Below, piece after piece: positions 6,915 through 18,317 of a stretch of 64,000 nucleotides of DNA (positions are counted from its first letter, which is position 1; each line of letters begins with the position of its first letter). The notes beneath the pieces were generated by a model. The model was given only the letters and a program-made list of their open reading frames with translations. It was not told the origin of the DNA and did not search any database. Source of the DNA: Aromatoleum evansii (lineage in GTDB: Bacteria; Pseudomonadota; Gammaproteobacteria; Burkholderiales; Rhodocyclaceae); the NCBI RefSeq assembly GCF_012910805.1, contig NZ_WTVK01000029.1, forward strand, positions 1 to 64,000. The letters run 5' to 3'. Made by a program: the position numbers and the translations under genes.

Positions 6915-8050
6915 CAGGATTGTTTGGTGGCTTGGCCGAAGAGACCGTATCGGGTCAGTTCATCCACCGTCTTCTGGTACATATCTACGGCGTCATGACG
7001 CTGCGCCCAAGCGACGAATTCCTGCATGCCCTCAATCAGACCGACACGCGGTTCGTATCCGAGCATCGTATGAGCGCGGCCCAAGTCGGCTACGCAGGCG
7101 TGGATGTCACCCACGCGAAACTCGCCTCGGTCTTCAAAAACGGGGGCCTTTCGGAGGGAGTGAGCTAGGGCGCTTGCGACATCCCCGATTCTGTCGCTCC
7201 GGCCGGTTCCTACATTGATGCAGGTTCCTGGGGTGCAGTTCGCTTCGAGTGCCAACAAATTGGCGGCGACTACATCGGAAATGTGGACGAAATCGCGCTC
7301 TGGGGTCCCCCTCTCGTACAGTGAAATGGGCTTTTCACTGAGTAGTCGACTGTAGAAGATCGAGACAACGCCCGTGTAAGGGTTTCGTAGTGACTGCCGT
7401 GAGCCGAAAACATTGAAATACCGAAGTATGGTTACGGGAAGTCCGAATGTGCGCGCGGCGTACGTGGCAAGATCCTCCTGATGTTTCTTGGTCCACGCGT
7501 ACATCGAGATCGGGTTGAGGGGTCTGTCCTCGGCGGTTGGCTCCGACGTCAATGGGCGATGACATTCGGGGCACAAGACCGCATAGATACCGCGCTCCAT
7601 GTCTTCCCTTCGGCGGGGGGCGGGAAACTGCTTTCCATGGTCCGTGCAGAAATGAGTTCCCTCGCCATAAACTGCCCTGGACGATGCGAGCACTATGCGC
7701 TTTAGGGATGCATCGCTCTTGAGAATGGCTTCGAGTAGCGTCGCCGTGCCCGTAGTATTGGTGTCGGTGTAGTTGTGCATGTCATACATGCTCTGCCCAA
7801 CGCCGGTGAGAGCAGCCAAATGGTATACGGCATCGATACCACCCAGCGCACAGCTTACATTCTCGAGGCTGCGCACGTCGCCCCGAATCGCCTCGACGCG
7901 GGGATCCAAGTACTCCGGAAATGCGCCTGCGGGTCCGTGTATTTGTGGATCTAGGATGTCAAGTATTCGAACTTGATGCCCTGCCGCTAGCAGGGCATCT
8001 GCGGTGTGAGATCCGATGAATCCTGCTCCGCCAGTGATAAGCACGCGCAT
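6914..8050 (-). CDS. NAD-dependent sugar-nucleotide epimerase, dTDP-rhamnose 4-epimerase-like
   Basis: This is an extended short-chain dehydrogenase/reductase of 378 residues. The Rossmann motif GGAGFIGSH is at residues 7-15, and the catalytic YAWTK (Tyr-x3-Lys) is near residue 190. RDFVHISDVV, typical of sugar-nucleotide epimerases, lies in the C-terminal half. Between the central strand and the active Tyr is an insertion with FCTDHG and LCPECHRPL, a Cys/His-rich stretch also known from dTDP-L-rhamnose 4-epimerase-like enzymes. A good ribosome site (GGGAGA) precedes the ATG. It is the first gene of the operon. The exact sugar is an inference. Confidence 0.75.
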   Translation of the reverse strand: MRVLITGGAGFIGSHTADALLAAGHQVRILDILDPQIHGPAGAFPEYLDPRVEAIRGDVRSLENVSCALGGIDAVYHLAALTGVGQSMYDMHNYTDTNTTGTATLLEAILKSDASLKRIVLASSRAVYGEGTHFCTDHGKQFPAPRRREDMERGIYAVLCPECHRPLTSEPTAEDRPLNPISMYAWTKKHQEDLATYAARTFGLPVTILRYFNVFGSRQSLRNPYTGVVSIFYSRLLSEKPISLYERGTPERDFVHISDVVAANLLALEANCTPGTCINVGTGRSDRIGDVASALAHSLRKAPVFEDRGEFRVGDIHACVADLGRAHTMLGYEPRVGLIEGMQEFVAWAQRHDAVDMYQKTVDELTRYGLFGQATKQS

Positions 8051-8185
8051 TGCAAATATCTCCCATTGACCCGCATCCGCGAGTGTCGAAGGTGGTCATC
8101 TGCTCATCAATTCACACTAGCACAATGGCCTCGTTTTTCGCATCGAACTTTGCGGTGGCCCGTCCGTTTATAGCTTCGCGCACTG

Positions 8186-8935
8186 CTATTCGTGTCGTCT
8201 GGGTGGCTGTGCCTGTTGTGCGGGAGGGGTGCGGCTGTCGTCATTGTTGAGAAGTTCTTCATAATGCTTGAGCACTGTCGGCACGTAGCGCTGCGTTTCT
8301 GCATATCGAGGAATGATGTTGCCGTGGCGCTCTACCGTCCTTTCGCCTGCATTGTAGGCCGCTAGCGCGAGTGGTAACGAGCCGAACCGGTCGATCAGTT
8401 CGCGCAAGTAGCGGGCGCCGCCCGCCAAGTTCTGACGCGCGTCGAGCGGATTGCTGACGCCGAAACGCGTGGCTGTTGCTGGCATCAACTGCATCAGGCC
8501 TAGTGCGCCCTTTGGTGAACGAGCCTGTTCGTCGAAGCGGCTCTCGACGAAGGCGACGGCTTCCACCAGTGCCGGATCGATGCGGTTTTGCTTCGCAGCG
8601 TCGCGTATCAGGGGCGATAGCTGTCCGGGGCTGCGGCGGCGACTGTTTCCATCCGCTCGCGCTGCGGTGCTTCCAGTCGCCGGGCGTGGTGAAAGTATTT
8701 CCAGGATCAGGCGGTGGCGGGGGTGGCTGGGCGCGTCGCTGAAGTTAAACACTCCGCGGTCGTCGGCATAGCCGTAGAGACGGTCCGCCCAGCACGATCC
8801 GGCGCTGCAGAACATGATGAGGGCAGACGCGACGAATCCAGCGCGACCATTGGCCCTGGCTCCCGAGCGACGCGCGAAGTCGGCCGTTCGCGGCAATCGA
8901 GTGGGGGCGTTAGGTGATGGCGTTGGTCTTTTCAT
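8186..8935 (-). CDS. Lytic transglycosylase (SLT domain) with DUF4124-like N-terminus
   Basis: The 249-residue protein has a signal-type hydrophobic stretch around residues 33-50, a short DUF4124-like segment (LYGYADDRGVFNFSD), then a soluble lytic transglycosylase domain. The catalytic Glu lies in AVAFVESRFDEQARS, followed by KGALGLMQLMPATA and LALAAYNAGE, all hallmarks of the family. It cuts peptidoglycan with formation of 1,6-anhydro-muramic acid in the periplasm. It diverges from the secretion operon starting at 9180, so a role in opening the wall for that machine is possible but unproven. The 135 bases between it and the epimerase hold no gene. Confidence 0.85.
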   Translation of the reverse strand: MKRPTPSPNAPTRLPRTADFARRSGARANGRAGFVASALIMFCSAGSCWADRLYGYADDRGVFNFSDAPSHPRHRLILEILSPRPATGSTAARADGNSRRRSPGQLSPLIRDAAKQNRIDPALVEAVAFVESRFDEQARSPKGALGLMQLMPATATRFGVSNPLDARQNLAGGARYLRELIDRFGSLPLALAAYNAGERTVERHGNIIPRYAETQRYVPTVLKHYEELLNNDDSRTPPAQQAQPPRRHE

Positions 8936-9179
8936 GGGACCTCATCCGGACTTTCGGTAACGCCTGCAGCCCTTTCGGAATGCAATGCGGAGCGCTGCCA
9001 CGAACTGTCCCAGTATGTAGGAATTTCATGATGCTTTCTATGCTAATGTTGGCGCAGGTCGCAGCGTGGAGACTACCCATGCGACCGGGATAGGTTCGGT
9101 GGGAGCGCGCGCTCCCCGCAGGGGGAGTTCAGGCGTCGTGAGGATGCTGGGCATACAGCTAACGATTCACTGGTGATCC

Positions 9180-10355
9180 ATGCGTTATCGTGTCAGGGCT
9201 CTCGGGGCGAACGTGTCCGTCGTCGAAACCGAACTCGAGGCGGGGTGCGAGGCGGATGTACGTGCGCTGGCCGAGGCGCGCGGCTTGTCCATACTTTCGC
9301 TCAAGGCGCTGGAGCGTGGCCGGGGCCGCAGCCGTTTTCCGTTGCTGCTGTTCAACCAGCAGCTGTTGGCCCTGCTGCGGGCGGGTATTCCGTTGGCCGA
9401 GGCAATCTCTGCGCTGGCGGAGAAGGAGCGCTGGCCGGCGATCCGGTCGGTGATGCAGGGGCTGCGCGAAGCGTTGCGCGAGGGCCGCAGCCTTTCGAGC
9501 GCGCTGGAGTCGGCGCCGCAGGCCTTTCCCCCCCTGTATGTCGCGCTGATTCGTGCCGCGGAGCGTACCAGCGACCTGGAGAGGGCCATTGTGCGCTTCA
9601 TCGCGTATCTGGAGGACGGTGAGCGCCTGCGTGACAAGCTGATCAGCGCAGCGATCTACCCCTTGCTGCTCGTCGGCGTGGGCGGTCTGGTGGTGCTGTT
9701 CCTGCTCGGATACGTGGTGCCACGTTTCTCGCATATCTATCAGAATGTCGGCACCAACCTGCCGTGGATGTCGCGCCTGCTGCTCGAGTGGGGGCAGTTC
9801 GTAGAGGGGCACTCCATCTTGCTCGGGGTGATCGTGCTGGCATTGGTGGGGGCAGGGGCCGTCGTGGTGCGTAGCCCTGCCCTGTGGGCGACCGTGGGGC
9901 GCTACATGTGGCGCATGCCGTTCGTCGGGGAGCGCCTGCGGGTGTTTCAGCTCGCACGTTTCTATCGGACGGTGGGAATGCTGCTTTCGGGAGGCATTCC
10001 GGTCGTGACGGCGCTGGGGATGGTGTCGGGGCTGCTTTCGCCGCCATTGCGGGCGAACCTGGCTGCCGCGATTGCCGCAATCCGCGAGGGGCGCAGTTTC
10101 TCGGAGATGCTGGCGGCGCGCGGCCTGACGACCCCTGTTGCGCTGCGCATGCTGGAGGTCGGCGAACGTGCGGGGAGTCTGGGCGAAATGCTGACGCGCG
10201 CGGCGGAATTTCACGAAGAGGATACCGCGAGGCAGGTAGAGTGGTTCACGCGTCTGTTCGGCCCATTGTTGATGTTGCTGATCGGTTGTGCGATCGGCCT
10301 GATCGTGGTGCTCATGTACATACCTATCTTCATGCTTGCAGAGAGCATTCGATGA
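9180..10355 (+). CDS. gspF: Type II secretion/type IV pilus inner-membrane platform protein
   Basis: This 391-residue protein has two repeated T2SSF domains (about residues 60-185 and 265-385) and three predicted membrane segments (near 160-185, 210-230 and 365-388). It is the inner-membrane platform that couples the ATPase to pseudopilin assembly. The repeated motif GIPLAEAI / GIPVVTAL, followed by the second-domain LEVGERAGSLGEML stretch, is characteristic. It is the first gene of a ten-gene operon; its stop overlaps the next start (ATGA at 10352-10355). The 244-base upstream region separates it from the divergent transglycosylase. Confidence 0.9.
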   Translation: MRYRVRALGANVSVVETELEAGCEADVRALAEARGLSILSLKALERGRGRSRFPLLLFNQQLLALLRAGIPLAEAISALAEKERWPAIRSVMQGLREALREGRSLSSALESAPQAFPPLYVALIRAAERTSDLERAIVRFIAYLEDGERLRDKLISAAIYPLLLVGVGGLVVLFLLGYVVPRFSHIYQNVGTNLPWMSRLLLEWGQFVEGHSILLGVIVLALVGAGAVVVRSPALWATVGRYMWRMPFVGERLRVFQLARFYRTVGMLLSGGIPVVTALGMVSGLLSPPLRANLAAAIAAIREGRSFSEMLAARGLTTPVALRMLEVGERAGSLGEMLTRAAEFHEEDTARQVEWFTRLFGPLLMLLIGCAIGLIVVLMYIPIFMLAESIR

Positions 10356-12025
10356 GCGAATCGCTGACTGCGGAGCTCGCTCCCGCTCCCTTTACTGCGG
10401 CGGAACTCGCGGCGGCGTTGGAGGCCGGCGAGCGCATCATTGACGGGCTCGCGAAGCTCGAGCCGAGTCCGGCGCTGCGTGTGGAACGTCTGGCGTCTGC
10501 GATCGGGCTCACGTCAATAGGGCACGGGCGTCTGATGGCGCTGGAGCCGGACTTCGGTGCGATTCCGTTCGAGATGGCGTTGAGCCGGGAGTGCGTGGCG
10601 CTACGTGGTGAGGACGGTGGCCTGGTCGTCGCGATCGCCGACCCCTTCGATGCCGACCTGCTGGATGGATTGGGTGCGCGCCTGCACGAGCCGTACGAGC
10701 TCGTGTTGGCGGATCACGACGATCTCGCGGCTTGCCTCGCACGTCATGAGGATGAGGTGCGACGGGCGGCCGGACTGATCGCATCTCACGAGGAGGGCGG
10801 AAAGGGCGACGGCGTCGAGGATCTGTCGCTCAAGCGCATCAGCGCGGACGTGAGTCCCGTCGTCAAGCTGGTCAATTCGACCCTTTATGATGGCTTGAAG
10901 CAGCTCGCGAGCGACATCCACCTCGAGTCGATCCCCGGAGGCCTGGTCATCAAGTACCGCCTCGACGGGGTGCTGGTGCGCGTCGGCAGCGCGCAGGGCA
11001 ACGAGCTCGCCGAGCAGGTCATTTCCCGCATCAAGGTGATGGCGGAACTCGACATCGCCGAGCGCCGGGTGCCCCAGGATGGGCGCTTCAAGGTCCGCTC
11101 GGGCGGGCGCGAGATCGACTTCCGCGTATCGATCATGCCCAGCATCCACGGCGAGGATGCGGTGCTGCGTATCCTCGACAAGGAGCACCTCAGCCGCGAG
11201 ATGAGCGGGCTGACGCTCGAGACGCTTGGATTTGACGATGATGTGCGGGGAGCACTGCGCCATCTCGCGAGCGAGCCCTACGGCATGCTGCTGGTCACCG
11301 GGCCGACCGGTTCGGGCAAGACGACAACGCTCTACGCGACGCTTGCCGAGACTAACCAGGGACTCGACAAGATCGTCACCATCGAGGATCCGGTCGAGTA
11401 CCAGCTCAACGGCGTGCTGCAGATCCCGGTGAATGAGAAGAAGGGGCTGACTTTCGCGCGTGGTTTGAGGTCAATCCTGCGCCACGACCCGGACAAGATC
11501 ATGGTCGGCGAGATCCGCGATGGAGAAACGGCGGAAATCGCAGTGCAGGCGGCATTGACCGGCCACCTCGTATTCACCACGGTGCACGCGAACAACGTCT
11601 TCGACGTGATGGGGCGCTTCATGCACATGGGGATCGATCCGTTCAACCTTGTCGCCGCGCTCAATGGCATCGTCGCCCAGCGCTTGCTGCGCATCAATTG
11701 TCCGCACTGCACGGAGGACGTGCCGCCCGACGCGCAACTGATCGCACGTTCGCGCATCGGCGATGCGAGCGCCTTCCGCTTCCGCGCAGGCCATGGCTGC
11801 GGCCAGTGCCGCGGGACGGGTTATCGCGGCCGGCGCGCGGTGGCTGAAGTGCTGCTGCTCGACGACGAGATCCGCGAGCTGATCGTCGCCCGTGCGCCGA
11901 TCCGGACTGTGAAGGAAGCGGCGCGACGCGGCGGATTCCGCGGCCTGCGCGACGCGGCGCTGGCGGTGGCCGCGGCCGGGGAAACCACGCTGCAGGAGGT
12001 GAATCGTGTCACGCTTCTCGGCTGA
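10352..12025 (+). CDS. gspE: Secretion ATPase of the type II/IV family
   Basis: The 557-residue protein has an N-terminal domain and a central RecA-like ATPase with Walker A GPTGSGKTTTL (about residue 316) and Walker B MVGEIRDGETAEIA (about 383). Near the C-terminus is a Cys tetrad (CPHC about 450, then CGQCRGTGYRG) that binds zinc in GspE/PilB proteins. It powers pseudopilus assembly from the cytoplasm. The ATG at 10352, in an ATGA overlap with gspF, is preferred over the much longer upstream extension, which runs inside gspF. Confidence 0.92.
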   Translation: MSESLTAELAPAPFTAAELAAALEAGERIIDGLAKLEPSPALRVERLASAIGLTSIGHGRLMALEPDFGAIPFEMALSRECVALRGEDGGLVVAIADPFDADLLDGLGARLHEPYELVLADHDDLAACLARHEDEVRRAAGLIASHEEGGKGDGVEDLSLKRISADVSPVVKLVNSTLYDGLKQLASDIHLESIPGGLVIKYRLDGVLVRVGSAQGNELAEQVISRIKVMAELDIAERRVPQDGRFKVRSGGREIDFRVSIMPSIHGEDAVLRILDKEHLSREMSGLTLETLGFDDDVRGALRHLASEPYGMLLVTGPTGSGKTTTLYATLAETNQGLDKIVTIEDPVEYQLNGVLQIPVNEKKGLTFARGLRSILRHDPDKIMVGEIRDGETAEIAVQAALTGHLVFTTVHANNVFDVMGRFMHMGIDPFNLVAALNGIVAQRLLRINCPHCTEDVPPDAQLIARSRIGDASAFRFRAGHGCGQCRGTGYRGRRAVAEVLLLDDEIRELIVARAPIRTVKEAARRGGFRGLRDAALAVAAAGETTLQEVNRVTLLG

Positions 12026-12734
12026 AGCCCGCCGCCTGCTGATCGAGCAGGACGCGATCCGCGTCGGCCATGGTTCGACACAAAGACGGCGGGCCTACGA
12101 GTGGGCTCCCGATGCCGCCCTGGCGGCGCTGGCAGCGGAGCCGGACGGCGGGGTGATGCGCGGTTCGCGCTGGGATGTACTGTTCGCCGATGCCGTGGTG
12201 CGCTATCTGATCGTCCGGTGGCCGCCCGGCCTGCGTGGCGCGGCCGAGCGCGAAGCGTTTCTGGCCCTGCGGTTCAGGGAGGTGCATGGAATCGGTGCGC
12301 CCGAATGGCGCATCGTCGTGGAGCGTGGCGCAACCGATTTTCCCGTCGTCGCATGTGCCGTGCCTGCCGCACACATCGAGGCAGTGTCCGCTTGGGGCAG
12401 GGAGCACCGGTTGCGTTTCGGCAGCGTCACGGGCGAGTTCCTTGCCGCCTATAACCGGGTGCGCCCCGAACTGGAAAGTCCGTTCGGCGCGTTGGCGGTG
12501 CAGCGTGAAGGGCGGGTCACGCTGGGGTTCTGGCGCGATGCGCAGTGGCAGTCCTTGAGCAGCCAACCGCTCGGCCCGGCCGGGGATATGTCGCTGGGCC
12601 TGTACCTGGAGTCCCAGGCTCTGCGCTCAGGCCTTCCGGGTGAGGCCGGAGTTCTGTATTGCATCGGCGAGGGACCGCGGGTTCCGGCCGGATGGCGCAA
12701 GCTTGCGCTGCACGCCGAAGGGTGGGAAGGATGA
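12006..12734 (+). CDS. Unrecognised secretion-operon protein, possible PilM/GspL-like component
   Basis: The 242-residue protein has no motif I can name. It starts with GTG inside the end of gspE, after a strong ribosome site (AGGAGGTGA), and ends in an ATGA overlap with the PilN-like gene. In pilus operons the gene before pilN is pilM, and in type II systems GspL carries an equivalent actin-like cytoplasmic domain. The position argues for such a role. The sequence is shorter than PilM (about 350) and lacks an obvious membrane segment. Confidence 0.5.
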   Translation: MSRFSAEARRLLIEQDAIRVGHGSTQRRRAYEWAPDAALAALAAEPDGGVMRGSRWDVLFADAVVRYLIVRWPPGLRGAAEREAFLALRFREVHGIGAPEWRIVVERGATDFPVVACAVPAAHIEAVSAWGREHRLRFGSVTGEFLAAYNRVRPELESPFGALAVQREGRVTLGFWRDAQWQSLSSQPLGPAGDMSLGLYLESQALRSGLPGEAGVLYCIGEGPRVPAGWRKLALHAEGWEG

Positions 12735-13273
12735 GACAGGTTCCGTTGGCGGTGGATCTCGATTTTCTGCGAACGGGCCGGCGGGTGAGCGTTGCGGGTT
12801 GGGGGATGCTCGCGGCGGGGGTGCTCGCCTGTGCGCTCCAGATCATTGACTACCGGCGTGCCAGTGCCGACATCGATGCGCGCACGGCGGCCGCGCTGAG
12901 TGCGCGCGAAGAGGCGCGGCGCGCACAGCCCGTTGCGGCGGTCGAGGGGAACCCCGTGAGCGCCGAGGAGGCGAAGGCCGTGCTTGGCGTCGCCGAGCGG
13001 CTGAATGCTGATTGGGGCGGGATGCTCGGCGGCATGGCAGGCGCGCAGGGCGAGGGGGTTACGTGGCTGAGCCTGCAGGCGGATCAGGCGCGGGGCAGGC
13101 TCGCGGTCGCCGGACAGGCCCGCTCGCTTGCGGAAATGTTCGAGTTCGTCGCCCGGCTCGGTGCCGTGCAGGGGATACGGGACGCCCAGTTGGCGAATTA
13201 CGAGTGGGTGCAGGTCGATAGTGGGGACGCGGTGCGATTCACCGTGAATGCAAAATGGAGCGGACGTCCGTGA
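12731..13273 (+). CDS. PilN-like inner-membrane assembly protein
   Basis: The 180-residue protein has a short cytoplasmic N-terminus (MRQVPLAVDLDFL), one membrane segment (about residues 20-38), a helical stretch and a ferredoxin-like periplasmic domain. This is the architecture of PilN and the C-terminal half of GspL. The motif WLSLQADQARGRLAVAGQA resembles the PilN core. It is translationally coupled to both neighbours. It probably forms an inner-membrane heterodimer with the next gene product. Confidence 0.6.
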   Translation: MRQVPLAVDLDFLRTGRRVSVAGWGMLAAGVLACALQIIDYRRASADIDARTAAALSAREEARRAQPVAAVEGNPVSAEEAKAVLGVAERLNADWGGMLGGMAGAQGEGVTWLSLQADQARGRLAVAGQARSLAEMFEFVARLGAVQGIRDAQLANYEWVQVDSGDAVRFTVNAKWSGRP

Positions 13274-13944
13274 TGCTCGGCGCTGGTGTCTTGATGCAGT
13301 ACTGGTGTCCGTGCCTCGTGGCGATGGTTGCGCCCGCGTCGGGCGGCGGCGAGGTTGCCGCGACCGCCGCGCCGGATGTGGGTGGGGCGCGCCGCAGCGG
13401 GGCGTCAGCCCGTCTCGCCAGGGAGTACATCGGACGGCTCGTGATGAATGCCGGTGTTCCCGGTGTGTTTGGGGTGTTGCTGCTGGTGGCTGCCGCGCTG
13501 GGGGGGTACGTTGCCAGTACCGACATCGATCGTCGCGCCGCGGCGCTTGCCGAAGAGCAGAACCGTACAGAGCGCAACGCAAGTGCCCCGGCCCCGGGGA
13601 GCGACGATCGCGCACGCGTCGTGGCCTTTTTCGAACGATTCCCGCCGGCCGCCGCGCTGCCGGAGAGCCTGCGCCGCCTGAACGAGCACGGTGCCGCACA
13701 CGGCATCAGCGTCCGCCGCACCGACTACGGCAGCTCGGTGGTGGCCGGCACGCCGCTGACGCTCGTCAGTCTCACGATACCCGTTGAGGCCGACGCGGCG
13801 GCGCTCTATGTCTGGCTTGGCGCACTGCTGCGGGAAATGCCCGAAATCGCGCTGGAATCGGTGAGTTTCAAGCGCGACAAGAGCGATGCCGAGGCGGTCG
13901 AGGCGGATATCCGCCTGCAACTCTATCTGCGGGGGCGCTCATGA
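13273..13944 (+). CDS. PilO/GspM-like inner-membrane assembly protein
   Basis: One membrane segment follows a basic N-terminal stretch (the hydrophobic run GVFGVLLLVAAALGGYVAS). A coiled region and a ferredoxin-like periplasmic domain (LVSLTIPVEADAAALYVWL, ending LQLYLRGRS) come after it, the layout of PilO and GspM. The start is taken at the ATG overlapping the previous stop (TGATG at 13271-13275); an ATG at 13255 is also in frame. The N-terminal extension of about 50 residues is longer than usual for PilO and contains two Cys. It ends in an ATGA overlap with the next gene. Confidence 0.6.
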   Translation: MLGAGVLMQYWCPCLVAMVAPASGGGEVAATAAPDVGGARRSGASARLAREYIGRLVMNAGVPGVFGVLLLVAAALGGYVASTDIDRRAAALAEEQNRTERNASAPAPGSDDRARVVAFFERFPPAAALPESLRRLNEHGAAHGISVRRTDYGSSVVAGTPLTLVSLTIPVEADAAALYVWLGALLREMPEIALESVSFKRDKSDAEAVEADIRLQLYLRGRS

Positions 13945-14450
13945 GGATGCGCCACGTGCTCCTGGCAGTTGCGCTGCTGGCGACGCTGGCAGCGAGCTGG
14001 TGGGCTGTCAATGAAGAGTCGGGCGTGGATGTGGTTCAGCCCGTCGAGCGCGCACCGCGGTCCAGGCTTGCGTCGGGGCAGGGAAAGTCGGGCGATGCGC
14101 CGGCATCGACGGCGGGGAGTCTCGCCCGACTCGATGTCGTGCGGGCAACGTGGCCCGAGCTGGATGATCCTCTGGCGCGTATCGTCAGCTTCGCCCCGCC
14201 TCCACCGCCGACCGCGTCAGCGCGGCCCGTGGAGCCGCAGGCGCCCCCTTTGCCGTTCCGCTATGTCGGCGCGATCGACGACGCACAGGGCAAGGCGGTG
14301 TTCCTGCTCGAGGGGGCGCAGGTCCGCGTGGCGCGCCAGGGCGAGGAAATCGCGGGCCGTTACCGTGTCGAGCGCATCACCCCGTCCGCGGTCGAATTCA
14401 CTTATCTGCCGCTCAAGAAAATTCAGACTCTCAATCGCCAGAATCCATGA
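13941..14450 (+). CDS. PilP/GspC-like periplasmic connector
   Basis: The 169-residue protein has an N-terminal membrane anchor (about residues 5-22), a Pro/Ala-rich linker (PPPPPTASARPVEPQ) and a small beta domain (FRYVGAIDD..VFLLEGAQV..RYRVERITPSAVEFTYL). This is the homology-region fold shared by GspC and PilP that binds the secretin's N-domain. It is coupled to its neighbours by ATGA overlaps on both sides. Its job is most likely to link the inner-membrane PilN/PilO pair to the outer-membrane secretin. Confidence 0.65.
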   Translation: MRMRHVLLAVALLATLAASWWAVNEESGVDVVQPVERAPRSRLASGQGKSGDAPASTAGSLARLDVVRATWPELDDPLARIVSFAPPPPPTASARPVEPQAPPLPFRYVGAIDDAQGKAVFLLEGAQVRVARQGEEIAGRYRVERITPSAVEFTYLPLKKIQTLNRQNP

Positions 14451-16855
14451 AAACGAAGACTTCGACCTTATCGCGATGCGGGGATTGCCAAGTCCTTCGT
14501 TCGATGCCCGCGAGCGCTTCGTCGCGCCGCAGATCTTCGGCGTGGAACGAATCCCCGCTCGCGCGCGCGCTGCGGAACGTCCTCCTGCCGACTTTTTCCG
14601 CCCTTCTTCTAGCCGCGTGTGCCGGCAACCCTGCGCTCGAACAGAGTCGACGCGACTTTGCCGCCGGCGATCGCGTGGAGGCGTTGCTGCGGCTGGAACA
14701 GGCCGTGAAGAAGGATCCGGAGAACCTCGAATTGCGCAGCTATTACGTGCGCCAGCGCGATCAGGTCGTGACGGAGAAGCTGGGTGTGGCCGAGAAAGCG
14801 CACGGGGCGCGGAAGCTGGACGAGGCGGCGCTGCTGTATCGCGATGTGCAGAAGCTCGACCCGGAGAACGCACGGGCCCGGCTCGGCCTTGAGGACCTCG
14901 AGCGGGCGCGTCGCCGTGCGGAGCGACTGGGGCAGGCCAGAGCAGCCCTCGCTGCCGGGGATGCAGCGACCGCCGGCCGCATCGCACGCGGGGTGTATGC
15001 CGAGGCGCCCGGCGACAGGGCCGCGCGCGAGCTGGTGCTGGAGCTGGACGAACGCGCCGAGCGTGCGAGCAAGCCGCGGGCAGAATCCCTGCAAGGGGCG
15101 ATGGCCCGGCCGGTGACGCTGGAGTTCCGCGATTCGCCATTGCGCGTCGTGTTCGAGGCGCTGTCGCGCGCGAGCGGACTGAATTTCGTGTTCGACAAGG
15201 ACGTGCGCGCGGACAGCCGCGTGACGCTGTTCGTGCGCGAGAACTCCGTCGACGAGGTGCTACGCCTGCTCTCCGCGACGCAGGGCATCGAGCGCAAGTT
15301 GTTGAACGCGAATACCGTCCTCATCTACCCGGTGACCACCGCCAAGCAGCGCGAGCACGTCGAGCTGGTGACGCGTAGCTTCTACCTCGCGAATGCCGAG
15401 GCGAAGGCCGCACAGACGCTGATCAAGCAGTTGGTGAAGAGCCGGGACGTGTTCATCGACGAGAAGCTCAACCTGCTCGTGATGAAGGACACGCCCGAAG
15501 CGGTGCGCATGGCCGAGCGCCTGGTCGCGACGCTGGATGTGCCCGAGCCGGAGGTGATGCTGGAACTGGAGGTGCTGGAGGTCAGCCGCAACAAGTTGCT
15601 GGACTTGGGGATCGATTTTCCCGACCAGGTCGGTTACGGCCTGCTGACGCCGACGCTGCCCGCATCCAGCCAGATCGTGAATGGCGTAGTGATCTCCGGC
15701 ACAACGCAGCTCGGTGGCAAGCTGCTTGACGGCAACATCGACCTGCGTCACAACCGCAACGATCTCGTACCCTTCATCGCCAACCCGGGGGCGGTGCTGC
15801 GCCTGAAGAGCGAGGACGGCGATTCGCGCATGCTCGCGAACCCGCGCATCCGCGTGCGCAACCGCGACAAGGCGAAGGTGCATATCGGCGACAAGCTGCC
15901 GGTGTTCACGACGACCTCGACGGCCAACGTCGGCGTGTCGGCCTCGGTGTCCTATCTCGACGTCGGTCTGAAGCTGGAGGTGGAGCCGTCCGTCTATCGC
16001 GATGACGAGGTCGGCATCAAGCTGAGCCTCGAGGTCAGCAGCATCGTCAAGGAGGTGCCCGGCCCCTCCAGTTCGCTCGCCTACCAAGTCGGTTCGCGCA
16101 GTGCATCCACTTCGTTGCGCCTGCGCAATGGCGAGACTCAGGTACTCGCGGGCCTGATCAACGACGAGGAACGCTCGTCAGCCCAACGCCTGCCCGGGCT
16201 GGGCAACCTGCCAATGGTCGGCAGGCTGTTCTCGGCCCAGCGCGACAGCAACAACAAGACGGAGATTGCTCTGCTGATCACGCCGCGCATCGTGCGCAAC
16301 GTGCTGCCACCGGTCTCGCTGCTGGCTGAAATGCCCGCGGGAACGGAGTCGAACATCGGTGCCGAGCCGCTGCGCATCGGTGCGACGGCGCCCCGCAGCC
16401 TGGGGCTGGTGGGCGAGGGGCGTCCGAGCCCTGCCACGCCGGTCGCGGCGCCACGCGCGGTGGCGGAGGAGCGTGCGGAGCCGGCCGAAGCGGTGGAGGC
16501 GAAGGAGGAGCAGGCGGCGCCCGAAGTCGCGCTGATCCTGCCTGAAACGGCTCGCCGCGGCGACACGTTCAACGCCATCGTGCGCGTAAGCGGAGCCGCC
16601 GGGGCAACCGCCGCCGATGTCACGATCGCGTACGATGCCAACCGCCTCGAAGCGGACGGGGCGGTGACCCCGGGAACGGTTCAGCTGCCCGTGAGCCTCA
16701 GGGATGGCCGGGCCGATCTGGTCGTGCGCCTTCGCCCCAAGGCCGATGCTTCGGGCGTGGCGACCATGGTCGCAACCGGCATGAAGCTGCGCCGCGAGAC
16801 GGGCGACGAAGACGTGGCGCTGTCGGCCGGGGGCACGGTGCGCATTGCCGAGTGA
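14447..16855 (+). CDS. gspD: Secretin, predicted lipoprotein with C-terminal cohesin-like domain
   Basis: The 802-residue protein has a lipobox LLLAAC (Cys 58) after an unusually long N-terminus; a later start such as Met 20 is possible. Next come TPR-like repeats (about 60-200), an STN-type secretin N-domain (about 222-290), a NolW-like repeat (about 308-390) and the secretin beta-barrel core (about 455-625). The core includes RMLANPRIRVRN and VLAGLINDEE...LPGLGNLPMVGRLF. After an Ala/Glu-rich linker, residues from about 690 to the end form a beta-rich cohesin-like module (ETARRGDTFNAIVRVSG, DVTIAYDANRLEADG). It forms the outer-membrane pore of the machine. The cohesin fusion is not part of a standard GspD or PilQ. 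Confidence 0.85.
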   Translation: MKTKTSTLSRCGDCQVLRSMPASASSRRRSSAWNESPLARALRNVLLPTFSALLLAACAGNPALEQSRRDFAAGDRVEALLRLEQAVKKDPENLELRSYYVRQRDQVVTEKLGVAEKAHGARKLDEAALLYRDVQKLDPENARARLGLEDLERARRRAERLGQARAALAAGDAATAGRIARGVYAEAPGDRAARELVLELDERAERASKPRAESLQGAMARPVTLEFRDSPLRVVFEALSRASGLNFVFDKDVRADSRVTLFVRENSVDEVLRLLSATQGIERKLLNANTVLIYPVTTAKQREHVELVTRSFYLANAEAKAAQTLIKQLVKSRDVFIDEKLNLLVMKDTPEAVRMAERLVATLDVPEPEVMLELEVLEVSRNKLLDLGIDFPDQVGYGLLTPTLPASSQIVNGVVISGTTQLGGKLLDGNIDLRHNRNDLVPFIANPGAVLRLKSEDGDSRMLANPRIRVRNRDKAKVHIGDKLPVFTTTSTANVGVSASVSYLDVGLKLEVEPSVYRDDEVGIKLSLEVSSIVKEVPGPSSSLAYQVGSRSASTSLRLRNGETQVLAGLINDEERSSAQRLPGLGNLPMVGRLFSAQRDSNNKTEIALLITPRIVRNVLPPVSLLAEMPAGTESNIGAEPLRIGATAPRSLGLVGEGRPSPATPVAAPRAVAEERAEPAEAVEAKEEQAAPEVALILPETARRGDTFNAIVRVSGAAGATAADVTIAYDANRLEADGAVTPGTVQLPVSLRDGRADLVVRLRPKADASGVATMVATGMKLRRETGDEDVALSAGGTVRIAE

Positions 16856-17331
16856 GGGGCCAGGTGACGCGCGGATTCACCCTCATCGAGCTCGTCGTGA
16901 CGGTGGCCATCATCGGCATCCTCGCGGCCGGGGCAATGCCGCTTGCCGAACTCGCCGCCCAGCGCGAGCGTGAGTCCGAGTTGCGCATCGCCCTCCGCCA
17001 GATCCGCGCCGGACTCGATGCGTACAAGGCGGCCTACGTCGAGCAGCGCATCGAGCAGCGCGTCGACGCGTCCGGCTATCCGCCTGACCTCGCGGTGCTG
17101 GTGAATGGCGTACCCGATATCACCCATCCGGCGGGCAAGCGCATCTACTTTCTGCGCCGCCTGCCGCGCGATCCCTTTCACACCGACCCCTCCGTGCCCG
17201 CGGAGCAGACCTGGGGCAGACGCAGCTATGCGAGCCCGCCGGAGGAGCCGGCCGAGGGGAAGGACGTGTATGACGTCTATTCGAAGTCGCCCCGCAGCGG
17301 ACTCAATGGCGTGCCATATCGTGAGTGGTAA
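16852..17331 (+). CDS. Type II pseudopilin, GspG-like
   Basis: The short basic leader ends in a prepilin peptidase site (G then FTLIELVV), followed by the hydrophobic N-terminal helix with Glu at +5, so this is a class III signal sequence. The C-terminal part has DPFHTDP and YDVYSKSPRSGLNG, similar to the GspG calcium-binding region. The start is either GTG at 16852, overlapping the secretin stop, or GTG at 16864. At about 155 residues it fits the major pseudopilin class. Confidence 0.8.
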   Translation: MRGQVTRGFTLIELVVTVAIIGILAAGAMPLAELAAQRERESELRIALRQIRAGLDAYKAAYVEQRIEQRVDASGYPPDLAVLVNGVPDITHPAGKRIYFLRRLPRDPFHTDPSVPAEQTWGRRSYASPPEEPAEGKDVYDVYSKSPRSGLNGVPYREW

Positions 17332-17338
17332 GGGTGCC

Positions 17339-17722
17339 ATGACGAAGCGGAGGATCGCTGCGGGCTTCACCCTCATCGAGCTGCTGGTGGTGCTGGCCAT
17401 CATCGCGACACTGATGTCGATCGCCGCTCCGCGCTATTTCGAGCACCTGGACCGCAGCCGCGAGGCCTCCCTGCGCCAGACGCTGTCGGTCGTGCGCGAT
17501 GCGATCGATCGCTACCACGCGGACATCGGCAAGTGGCCGCCCGATCTCGACACCCTCGTGACGAAGCGTTATCTGCGCAAGCTTCCCGTCGATCCGATCA
17601 CCGAGCGCAGCGATTCGTGGCAGCTCGTAGCGGCGCCGGGCGAGGAGGAGGCGGGGGTGTGGGACCTCCACAGCGGGGCCGAAGGCACAGCCAAGGACGG
17701 TACGCATTTTGCCGAGTGGTGA
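17339..17722 (+). CDS. Second GspG-like pseudopilin
   Basis: The 127-residue protein has leader MTKRRIAAG, cleavage before FTLIELLVVLAII and Glu at +5. The C-terminal part has KLPVDPITERSDSW and VWDLHSGAEGTAKDGTHFAEW, the typical GspG end. It follows the first pseudopilin by seven bases, and the two differ outside the N-terminal helix. One may be the major subunit and the other a minor one; the sequence does not decide which. Confidence 0.8.
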   Translation: MTKRRIAAGFTLIELLVVLAIIATLMSIAAPRYFEHLDRSREASLRQTLSVVRDAIDRYHADIGKWPPDLDTLVTKRYLRKLPVDPITERSDSWQLVAAPGEEEAGVWDLHSGAEGTAKDGTHFAEW

Positions 17723-17726
17723 GATC

Positions 17727-18317
17727 GTGCGCGGTCGTGTGCGAGCGCAAGGCGTGAGGGCTGGTCCCCGTGCAGTCGGGACGCGGCAGGGCGGTTATAC
17801 CTACCTGCTGGTGCTGTTCATCGTCGCAGGGCTCGGCCTGCTGGTGGCGCAGACCGGGGTGGTGTGGCGACAGGCGGCGCAGCGCGAGCGCGAGGCGGAA
17901 CTGCTGGTGATTGGCGTGGAGTTCTCGCGTGCGCTGTCCAGCTATGTCAAGGCCGGTGCGGATCACAGCCTGCCCGAAAGTCTGCAGCAACTCGTGGAGG
18001 ATAGGCGCGGGCCGGTTCTCGTCAGACACCTGCGCCGGATCTATCGCGACCCTTTTACCGCGCAGCCCGTCTGGGGCCTTGAGAAGGCCGGCGGACGAAT
18101 CGCGGGCGTGTATAGCCTCGCCCAGGGCGTTCCGATCAGGCAGCACGATCTGCCCAAGGAGCTCGGCGGGCTTACGGGCGAAGTCAGGAGCTACGCCGAG
18201 TGGGTGTTCAGGCCGCTCGAAGCGGACGACGGCACTGCAGTCGGAACGGCTCCCGGCGCGGGCCCCGCCGCCGCTCGCGCCGGGGGCGGCGCAGCCGTTC
18301 CGGGATTAGGCGATTAG
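17727..18317 (+). CDS. Pseudopilin-like protein lacking Glu5
   Basis: The N-terminus has a basic leader ending GG, then [19 protein letters not shown]. This looks like a prepilin signal but has Leu, not Glu, at the fifth position of the mature chain. The rest has [15 protein letters not shown] and [13 protein letters not shown], similar to GspG-type C-termini, ending in a Gly/Ala-rich tail. Several GTG starts are possible; 17727 is used, while TTG at 17709 overlaps the previous gene. Lack of Glu5 is described for the tip pseudopilin GspK, so a tip role is possible. It ends the operon and overlaps the convergent proB stop by four bases. Confidence 0.65.

Follow-up and report, generated by a model that had tools for sequence, protein, structure and literature searches.

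We describe a secretin lipoprotein that carries a shortened cohesin-like domain at its C-terminus and would form the outer-membrane pore of a machine that is best called, judging from sequence, an atypical export machine of the type II secretion system (T2SS) kind. Its gene occupies 14447..16855 (+) of the window, that is, the whole stretch of 64,000 nucleotides from Aromatoleum evansii analysed here (contig NZ_WTVK01000029.1). The gene encodes 802 amino acids and is D of an operon ordered F-E-L-N-M-C-D-G1-G2-G3, an order that recurs in relatives. Among genomes of Burkholderiales, the machine co-occurs with exosortase, and genes for PEP-CTERM proteins, which exosortases process, cluster near its operon. 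We tentatively favour a reading in which the tail docks clients on this atypical T2SS, and in which these clients include PEP-CTERM proteins.

The open reading frame (ORF) is intact, has no internal stops, and bears all of the following features on its forward strand. A hydrophobic signal stretch (14573..14620) ends in the lipobox LAAC, whose cysteine (Cys58, codon 14618-14620) falls in a conserved alignment column. Behind it lies a tetratricopeptide repeat (TPR)-like domain of seven helices (14618..15067), recognised by Pfam TPR_19 from residue 71, by a profile compared with TPR proteins in the PDB, and by AlphaFold2 (AF2), with a predicted local distance difference test (pLDDT) score of mostly about 90. 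This is followed by an N0/STN-like domain (15110..15331; FecR_C and STN matches, AF2 secondary structure) and a single N1 domain (15368..15535; Pfam Secretin_N at residues 309-368, AF2), with no N2 or N3 seen. The secretin core (15809..16297; Pfam Secretin at residues 455-617, E 3e-37) scores 128 bits against a cut-off of 27.5 for PF00263, which places the protein in the secretin superfamily. Fifteen residues past the core, an alignment reveals a G-T-E motif (16340..16348) in a disordered stretch (pLDDT about 32). An Ala/Glu/Pro-rich linker (16412..16510), evident in the sequence and the AF2 model, then leads to the cohesin-like domain (16511..16852; residues 689-802). About 40 residues lie upstream of the signal stretch (14447-14572), and a shorter relative (L004) hints that the real start may be more downstream.

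AF2 modelling of the mature secretin, run with 54 aligned sequences, predicts disorder between pore and cohesin-like domain (pLDDT about 30; below 50 across the tail and linker, residues 567-631 of the mature protein), and then a last domain mostly above 90. The predicted template modelling score of the whole protein is only 0.36, and the relative placement of its domains is therefore uninformative. Foldseek with the whole mature model ranks secretins on top, and the cohesin 2vo8 comes 41st of 50 matches at E<=0.001.

That the tail domain is homologous to cohesins is well supported. An original prediction, made from the sequence, had proposed a secretin lipoprotein at these coordinates whose Ala/Glu-rich linker leads to about 110 residues of cohesin-like pattern. 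The linker is indeed there, and the domain behind it measures 114 residues. Pfam Cohesin (PF00963) matches residues 701-744 with 20.4 bits in the full protein, below its cut-off of 24.1; the isolated domain rises just above this (24.5 and 24.7 bits), with only profile positions 9-53 aligned. At 114 residues against 139 profile positions, the domain is not a full-length cohesin. By eye, 47 of 52 aligned tail domains lack a segment of about 30 residues that would separate the YD strand from the strand after it. The other five retain this segment, among them a second tailed secretin of this genome, a paralogue on contig C1, which matches Cohesin profile positions 9-123. A profile built from the 52 tail domains retrieves cohesins from the PDB. 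The best total E-value, 9.4e-9 for 3l8q, is a sum over two domains that singly reach 0.0093 and 0.13, while the best single-stretch match (4.7e-6; E 3.4e-6 overall) is 2jh2 of NagJ, which we take to be a cohesin-like module. AF2 models the domain alone with a mean pLDDT of 94. Its top Foldseek match is cohesin 2vo8 from Clostridium perfringens (E 3e-6, query TM-score (TMq) 0.77), followed by type II cohesins (TMq about 0.7) mixed with complement domains (about 0.6). The predicted fold is thus the cohesin beta-sandwich, and it rules out an ordinary secretin S-domain, which had been named as a result that would overturn the prediction.

Some results count against the cohesin assignment. A PDB search with the single sequence returned no cohesins, and just 23 of the 52 tail domains match Pfam Cohesin at E<=0.01. 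Further, the complement domains among the Foldseek matches, and a designed Ig-like protein (8bl6; E 2e-6, best single stretch 0.051) among the profile matches, are kept as a reservation. With cohesins of PF00963, especially 2vo8 and the type II cohesins, the tail domain shares the beta-sandwich, the G and YD signature and profile homology; it differs in being about 30 residues shorter, in its fusion to a secretin, and in its genome, where a search with the dockerin family PF00404, the one dockerin family searched, gave no match at E<=1.

The original prediction took the lipobox as a sign that the protein targets itself to the outer membrane and needs no separate pilotin. Conservation is consistent with this: the Cys58 column holds cysteine in 80 of 81 alignment rows, and the one exception (L081) is an ORF chosen too short, whose complete form reads LAGC. 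A lipobox pattern search by itself finds 76 of the 81. What the prediction missed is the TPR solenoid that comes after the lipid anchor. In type IV pilus (T4P) and Tad systems, lipoproteins with TPRs serve as pilotins. Since the solenoid follows the lipobox, the protein looks like a secretin that has its pilotin built in, and we infer that the lipid and the fused TPR part together serve as a pilotin in cis. HxcQ of Pseudomonas likewise has a lipobox on the secretin itself, and presumably has neither TPRs nor a cohesin.

In the Tad system, the TPR lipoprotein TadD is a protein of its own and binds the secretin RcpA at the very end of its disordered C-terminus (PMC10499894). The pairing of lipid and TPR solenoid with a secretin is common to TadD/PilF pilotins and the present protein, but those pilotins are separate proteins, whereas here the TPR part is fused to the secretin N-terminus. 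The motif G[TSV][ED] stands 15 residues past the core in all 81 rows (72 by pattern, the remaining nine reading GSE). By analogy with RcpA and TadD, this G-x-E/D motif may dock into the TPR groove. No protein named as a pilotin appears among the best 60 of 80 PDB matches to a profile of the TPR region.

The genes around D indicate what kind of machine this may be. Upstream, all on the forward strand, are F (9180..10355), a GspF-like inner-membrane protein (T2SSF 1.3e-54; GspF model 274 bits against a cut-off of 424); E (10352..12025), a GspE/PilB-like ATPase with an MshEN domain (T2SSE 8e-123; GspE model 494 bits against 630); L (12006..12734), in the slot of a GspL/PilM-like protein by position alone; N (12659..13273), PilN-like (PF05137 6.6e-4, under cut-off); M (13255..13944), GspM-like (NF040576 7.6e-4, under cut-off); and C (13941..14450), in the conserved slot of a GspC/PilP-like protein. 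Downstream, also on the forward strand, are the pseudopilin-like G1 (16852..17331; N_methyl 6e-8; GspG model 33.6 bits against 88.9) and G2 (17303..17722; N_methyl 1.4e-7; 56.5 bits on the same GspG model), the latter nearest to GspG, and G3 (17709..18317), a third small protein conserved in position in the pseudopilin block. L, C and G3 match no family at E<=0.001, and L, N, C and G3 no NCBIfam model at that threshold. Across 88 loci, many of them truncated, we counted D in 87, G2 in 82, G1 in 74, G3 in 72, E in 66, C in 65, F in 62, M in 44, N in 43 and L in 40.

All of the scanned operon proteins score below the NCBIfam cut-offs for named subunits of T2SS, T4P or mannose-sensitive haemagglutinin (MSHA) pili. 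The only cut-off passed is that of the general prepilin N-terminal domain model, by G1 and G2. The secretin scores 170 bits against an equivalog cut-off of 351 for GspD (TIGR02517), 158 against a subfamily cut-off of 284 for PilQ (TIGR02515), and 98 against an equivalog cut-off of 250 for MshL (TIGR02519). It has in common with these proteins the secretin core and N1, and the F, E and pseudopilin-like neighbours, but differs in showing N0 and N1 alone, a fused TPR lipoprotein part, and a cohesin-like tail instead of an S-domain. Five secretins occur in this genome: PilQ, a PilN-type secretin of type IVb pili, one under all cut-offs, and two that are tailed; there is no GspD at E<=1e-100. The Pul/OxpG system of Geobacteraceae may be related. 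PMC3543383 describes it as a second T2SS, whose three pseudopilins are PulG, OxpG and TklG, and the likeness is one of description only, three pseudopilins being the common feature.

Several further loci and neighbours were observed. Locus L088, from contig C1 of the window's genome, carries at its positions 6986-10979 a second copy of the system, with a C-like match, D and G1-G3, and a full-length cohesin tail; a long ORF resembling CapB/PgsB by eye converges with it. In one member of the genus, the second paralogue has a tail that matches as two pieces in different frames (G390:C1:231340-231763). In the window, a lytic transglycosylase-like gene, so named by eye, lies divergent from the operon (8186-8935, -), with a tblastn match in 25 of 80 relative loci. 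In Dechloromonas aromatica, PMC2907700 places PulDEFG-like genes, to which it gives no known function, near a lytic transglycosylase. A link between this gene and the tail was considered and rejected: it accompanies tailed and untailed secretins alike, with no pattern by eye.

The tail is neither rare nor unique to this protein. Relatives bearing one are widespread, with patchy absences. The relatives are the best 80 of 349 confirmed in genome contigs. Tail states were assigned to 81 rows (79 relatives, the window and the C1 paralogue), leaving out a truncated locus (L067) and a duplicate of the window (L082), by a tail length of at least 160 plus inspection by eye; one locus (L014) was reassigned to none, and 'full' was judged by eye. 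Five rows are full, 47 short and 29 without tail, and a tree of these rows requires about 10 changes of state. Of 200 Burkholderiales genomes, 78 encode a secretin of this family (E<=1e-60), and 42 of these a tailed one, where tailed means a tail-profile match within an open frame of 750-1000 residues. The secretin core was confirmed in the same frame for 27 of the 30 loci that this search returned, the exceptions being L129, L130 and L136. Within the genus of the window (Aromatoleum/Azoarcus), a tail is matched in 16 of the 17 genomes. Pfam Cohesin itself proved a poor marker for this secretin: it matches at E<=0.001 in 14 of 185 genomes of the class, and among the 18 loci from the remaining 13 of these genomes, the core profile was found in one (L099, in G017).

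RefSeq gives two plasmid relatives the name 'cohesin domain-containing protein', so the architecture is already known to annotation. No description of a secretin joined to a cohesin was found in the literature searched, where broader searches were judged by title and few subscription papers were covered. Weak matches to the tail-cohesin profile also occur in frames of 5,000-14,000 codons (G376:C64, G347:C77, G213:C2, G323:C21, G189:C9 and others), perhaps giant surface proteins. Further, a 236-residue frame (L097, in G064) combines a cohesin match with a C-terminus that looks PEP-CTERM-like by eye, and the cohesin fold may thus occur on a sorted protein too.

The cohesin-like domain is under constraint, though far more loosely than the pore. 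Simple pairwise counts with five close relatives give ratios of non-synonymous to synonymous change (omega) of 0.21-0.34 for this domain and 0.27-0.45 for the linker, against 0.06-0.09 for N1 to secretin, 0.05-0.11 for the TPR part and 0.04-0.08 for the first tail segment (617-655). Mean column identity in the tail-domain alignment is 25%. Relaxed constraint, high divergence and some 10 changes of tail state would be in keeping with a module whose partner changes.

What the machine might export is suggested by its neighbours. In many relatives (for example L007, L009, L012, L013, L020 and L077), genes for a LuxR-type regulator and a PEP-CTERM protein lie downstream of G3. All three neighbouring LuxR proteins tested pass the cut-off of the EpsA model ('XrtB/PEP-CTERM-associated transcriptional regulator'). 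PEP-CTERM models match all seven neighbour proteins tested; six pass the general model TIGR02595, and all remain under the cut-offs of the more specific ones. A custom PEP-CTERM pattern occurs within 4 kb at 29 of 80 loci, or 27 once two matches false by eye (L025 and L028) are removed. Its density is 0.074 per kb close to the operon (38 matches in 514 kb, of which two look false by eye), compared with 0.027 per kb farther away (8 in 300 kb). In the window's own genome there are two exosortases, along with four PEP-CTERM matches.

The association extends to whole genomes. With the five best candidates scored per genome in the machine search, 48 of the 200 genomes have both machine and exosortase, 30 the machine only, 26 exosortase only and 96 neither (odds ratio 5.9, p 1.5e-8). 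For canonical GspD, used as a control, the corresponding counts are 32, 50, 42 and 76 (odds ratio 1.16, p 0.66). Because the genomes are related, the pooled p value is optimistic. Taking the first genome listed for each of 43 families gives 15, 9, 2 and 17 (p 6e-4); counting seven further families as 'neither' gives 15, 9, 2 and 24 (p 5.8e-5), although for four of these seven the family was assigned from handle order. The link belongs to the machine rather than the tail, since exosortase occurs in 26 of the 42 machine genomes with a tail and in 22 of the 36 without one (p 1.0), and a tie between tail and exosortase was rejected on this basis. A tie between tail and adjacent PEP-CTERM genes was also rejected, as the trend runs opposite. 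Among the 69 relative loci that have an assigned tail state and at least 4 kb of sequence to one side, a PEP-CTERM-like ORF lies within 4 kb at 16 of 23 untailed loci, 11 of 42 short-tailed (one false, in L046) and one of four full-tailed, by an earlier, slightly different version of the custom pattern. EpsA-like regulators were counted at two full-tailed, 12 short-tailed and 14 untailed loci.

We propose that lipid and fused TPR would work as a built-in pilotin for the pore, with the disordered tail motif docking in the TPR groove. The C-terminus of secretins lies on the periplasmic side. The cohesin-like domains would accordingly hang in the periplasm on flexible tethers around the pore, and, at one per protomer, a ring of usual size would hold roughly a dozen or more of them. 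Through an interface other than that used by dockerins, they may capture a lineage-specific client or envelope partner, raising the local concentration of the client for export. Clients of the machine as a whole would include PEP-CTERM proteins. Haft et al. (PMC1569441) propose that these proteins reach or cross the outer membrane by an unknown route, and a T2SS ATPase is the 34th best match in one of their profiling tables. MYXO-CTERM and GlyGly-CTERM proteins are described as exported via T2SS in the accessible text of PMC11980579; for GlyGly-CTERM, that of PMC3237569 reports T2SS in most such species, as co-occurrence only, and no special subclass. The text available of PMC3684757 and PMC11980579 does not describe a link between the present machine and PEP-CTERM. 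A bolder form of the proposal, which we hold to be unlikely, is that PEP-CTERM/exosortase proteins of Betaproteobacteria leave through the outer membrane by way of the F-E-L-N-M-C-D-G-G-G machine, which would be the exit so far missing; its secretin would bring a TPR pilotin along and, in many lineages, a ring of tethered cohesin-like adaptors to which clients dock in the periplasm.

Several observations weigh against client docking and PEP-CTERM export. The genome search with PF00404 yielded no partner for the putative binding tail, and its periplasmic placement is taken from the general topology of secretins. Exosortase and machine each occur alone: 30 of 78 machine genomes have no detected exosortase, and 26 of 74 exosortase genomes have no machine, 12 of them having no canonical GspD either. 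Both the equal exosortase frequency in tailed and untailed genomes and the excess of PEP-CTERM-like neighbours at untailed loci sit awkwardly with a tail that serves these clients. In the window itself, one EpsA-like and one PEP-CTERM query matched nothing. Copies of the machine on plasmids of Janthinobacterium and Eleftheria (L161 and L162) are flanked by RHS-repeat proteins (both) and an FG-GAP-repeat protein (Janthinobacterium), possible alternative clients, and the clients of the machine may therefore differ. RHS proteins were rejected as general clients: RHS_repeat has no match in this genome, and an RHS query from Janthinobacterium matched, weakly, only one (L021) of the 80 relative loci, the query set containing this RHS protein and not that of Eleftheria.

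These plasmid neighbours, together with the machine genomes in which exosortase went undetected, are what a machine unrelated to PEP-CTERM would lead one to expect. It might secrete RHS or FG-GAP proteins, for example, or oxidases as in Geobacter, with the co-occurrence arising from shared lineages. We hold this possibility to be almost as likely as the favoured reading. Against it, the association survives the one-per-family test, canonical GspD does not display it, and EpsA-like and PEP-CTERM genes lie near the operon in many relatives. For the tail, a role without any client can be envisaged, as a structural or anchoring module that braces the ring on peptidoglycan, the inner leaflet or a machine subunit. 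Its expected periplasmic position and the adjoining lytic transglycosylase-like gene would suit such a brace. Yet a fixed partner should hold the surface of the domain constant, and the domain outpaces pore and TPR in evolution and is missing from many relatives that retain the machine; the transglycosylase, for its part, occurs with untailed secretins too. We regard bracing as doubtful.

We judge it less likely still that the tail is the decaying remnant of a full-length cohesin, shortened after loss of its partner and now disappearing. The short domain, its raised omega, its absence from 29 of 81 rows (presuming loss rather than gain) and the want of a PF00404 dockerin speak for decay; omega below 1, an intact predicted fold and near-universal retention in the genus speak against it. 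The least probable by far is the original suggestion that a surface-facing cohesin holds a substrate or surface protein, possibly one that is dockerin-like. The cohesin-type fold fits, but the dockerin search came back empty, and secretin topology sets the C-terminus in the periplasm. Overall, then, that interpretation is partly supported: architecture and fold stand, while the dockerin partner and surface location find no support.

For the family, the tentatively favoured client-docking tail would be a case of the cohesin fold reused on an export pore, apparently without a dockerin, and the secretin architecture provides a single-chain system for studying pilotin function. The accessible part of the 2006 paper that defined PEP-CTERM proteins (PMC1569441) left their outer-membrane crossing open, and the later literature on the topic, as far as its text is accessible, shows no dedicated export machine for them. 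For this outer-membrane export step, a direct candidate is a T2SS-like machine that both co-occurs with PEP-CTERM genes and clusters with them.

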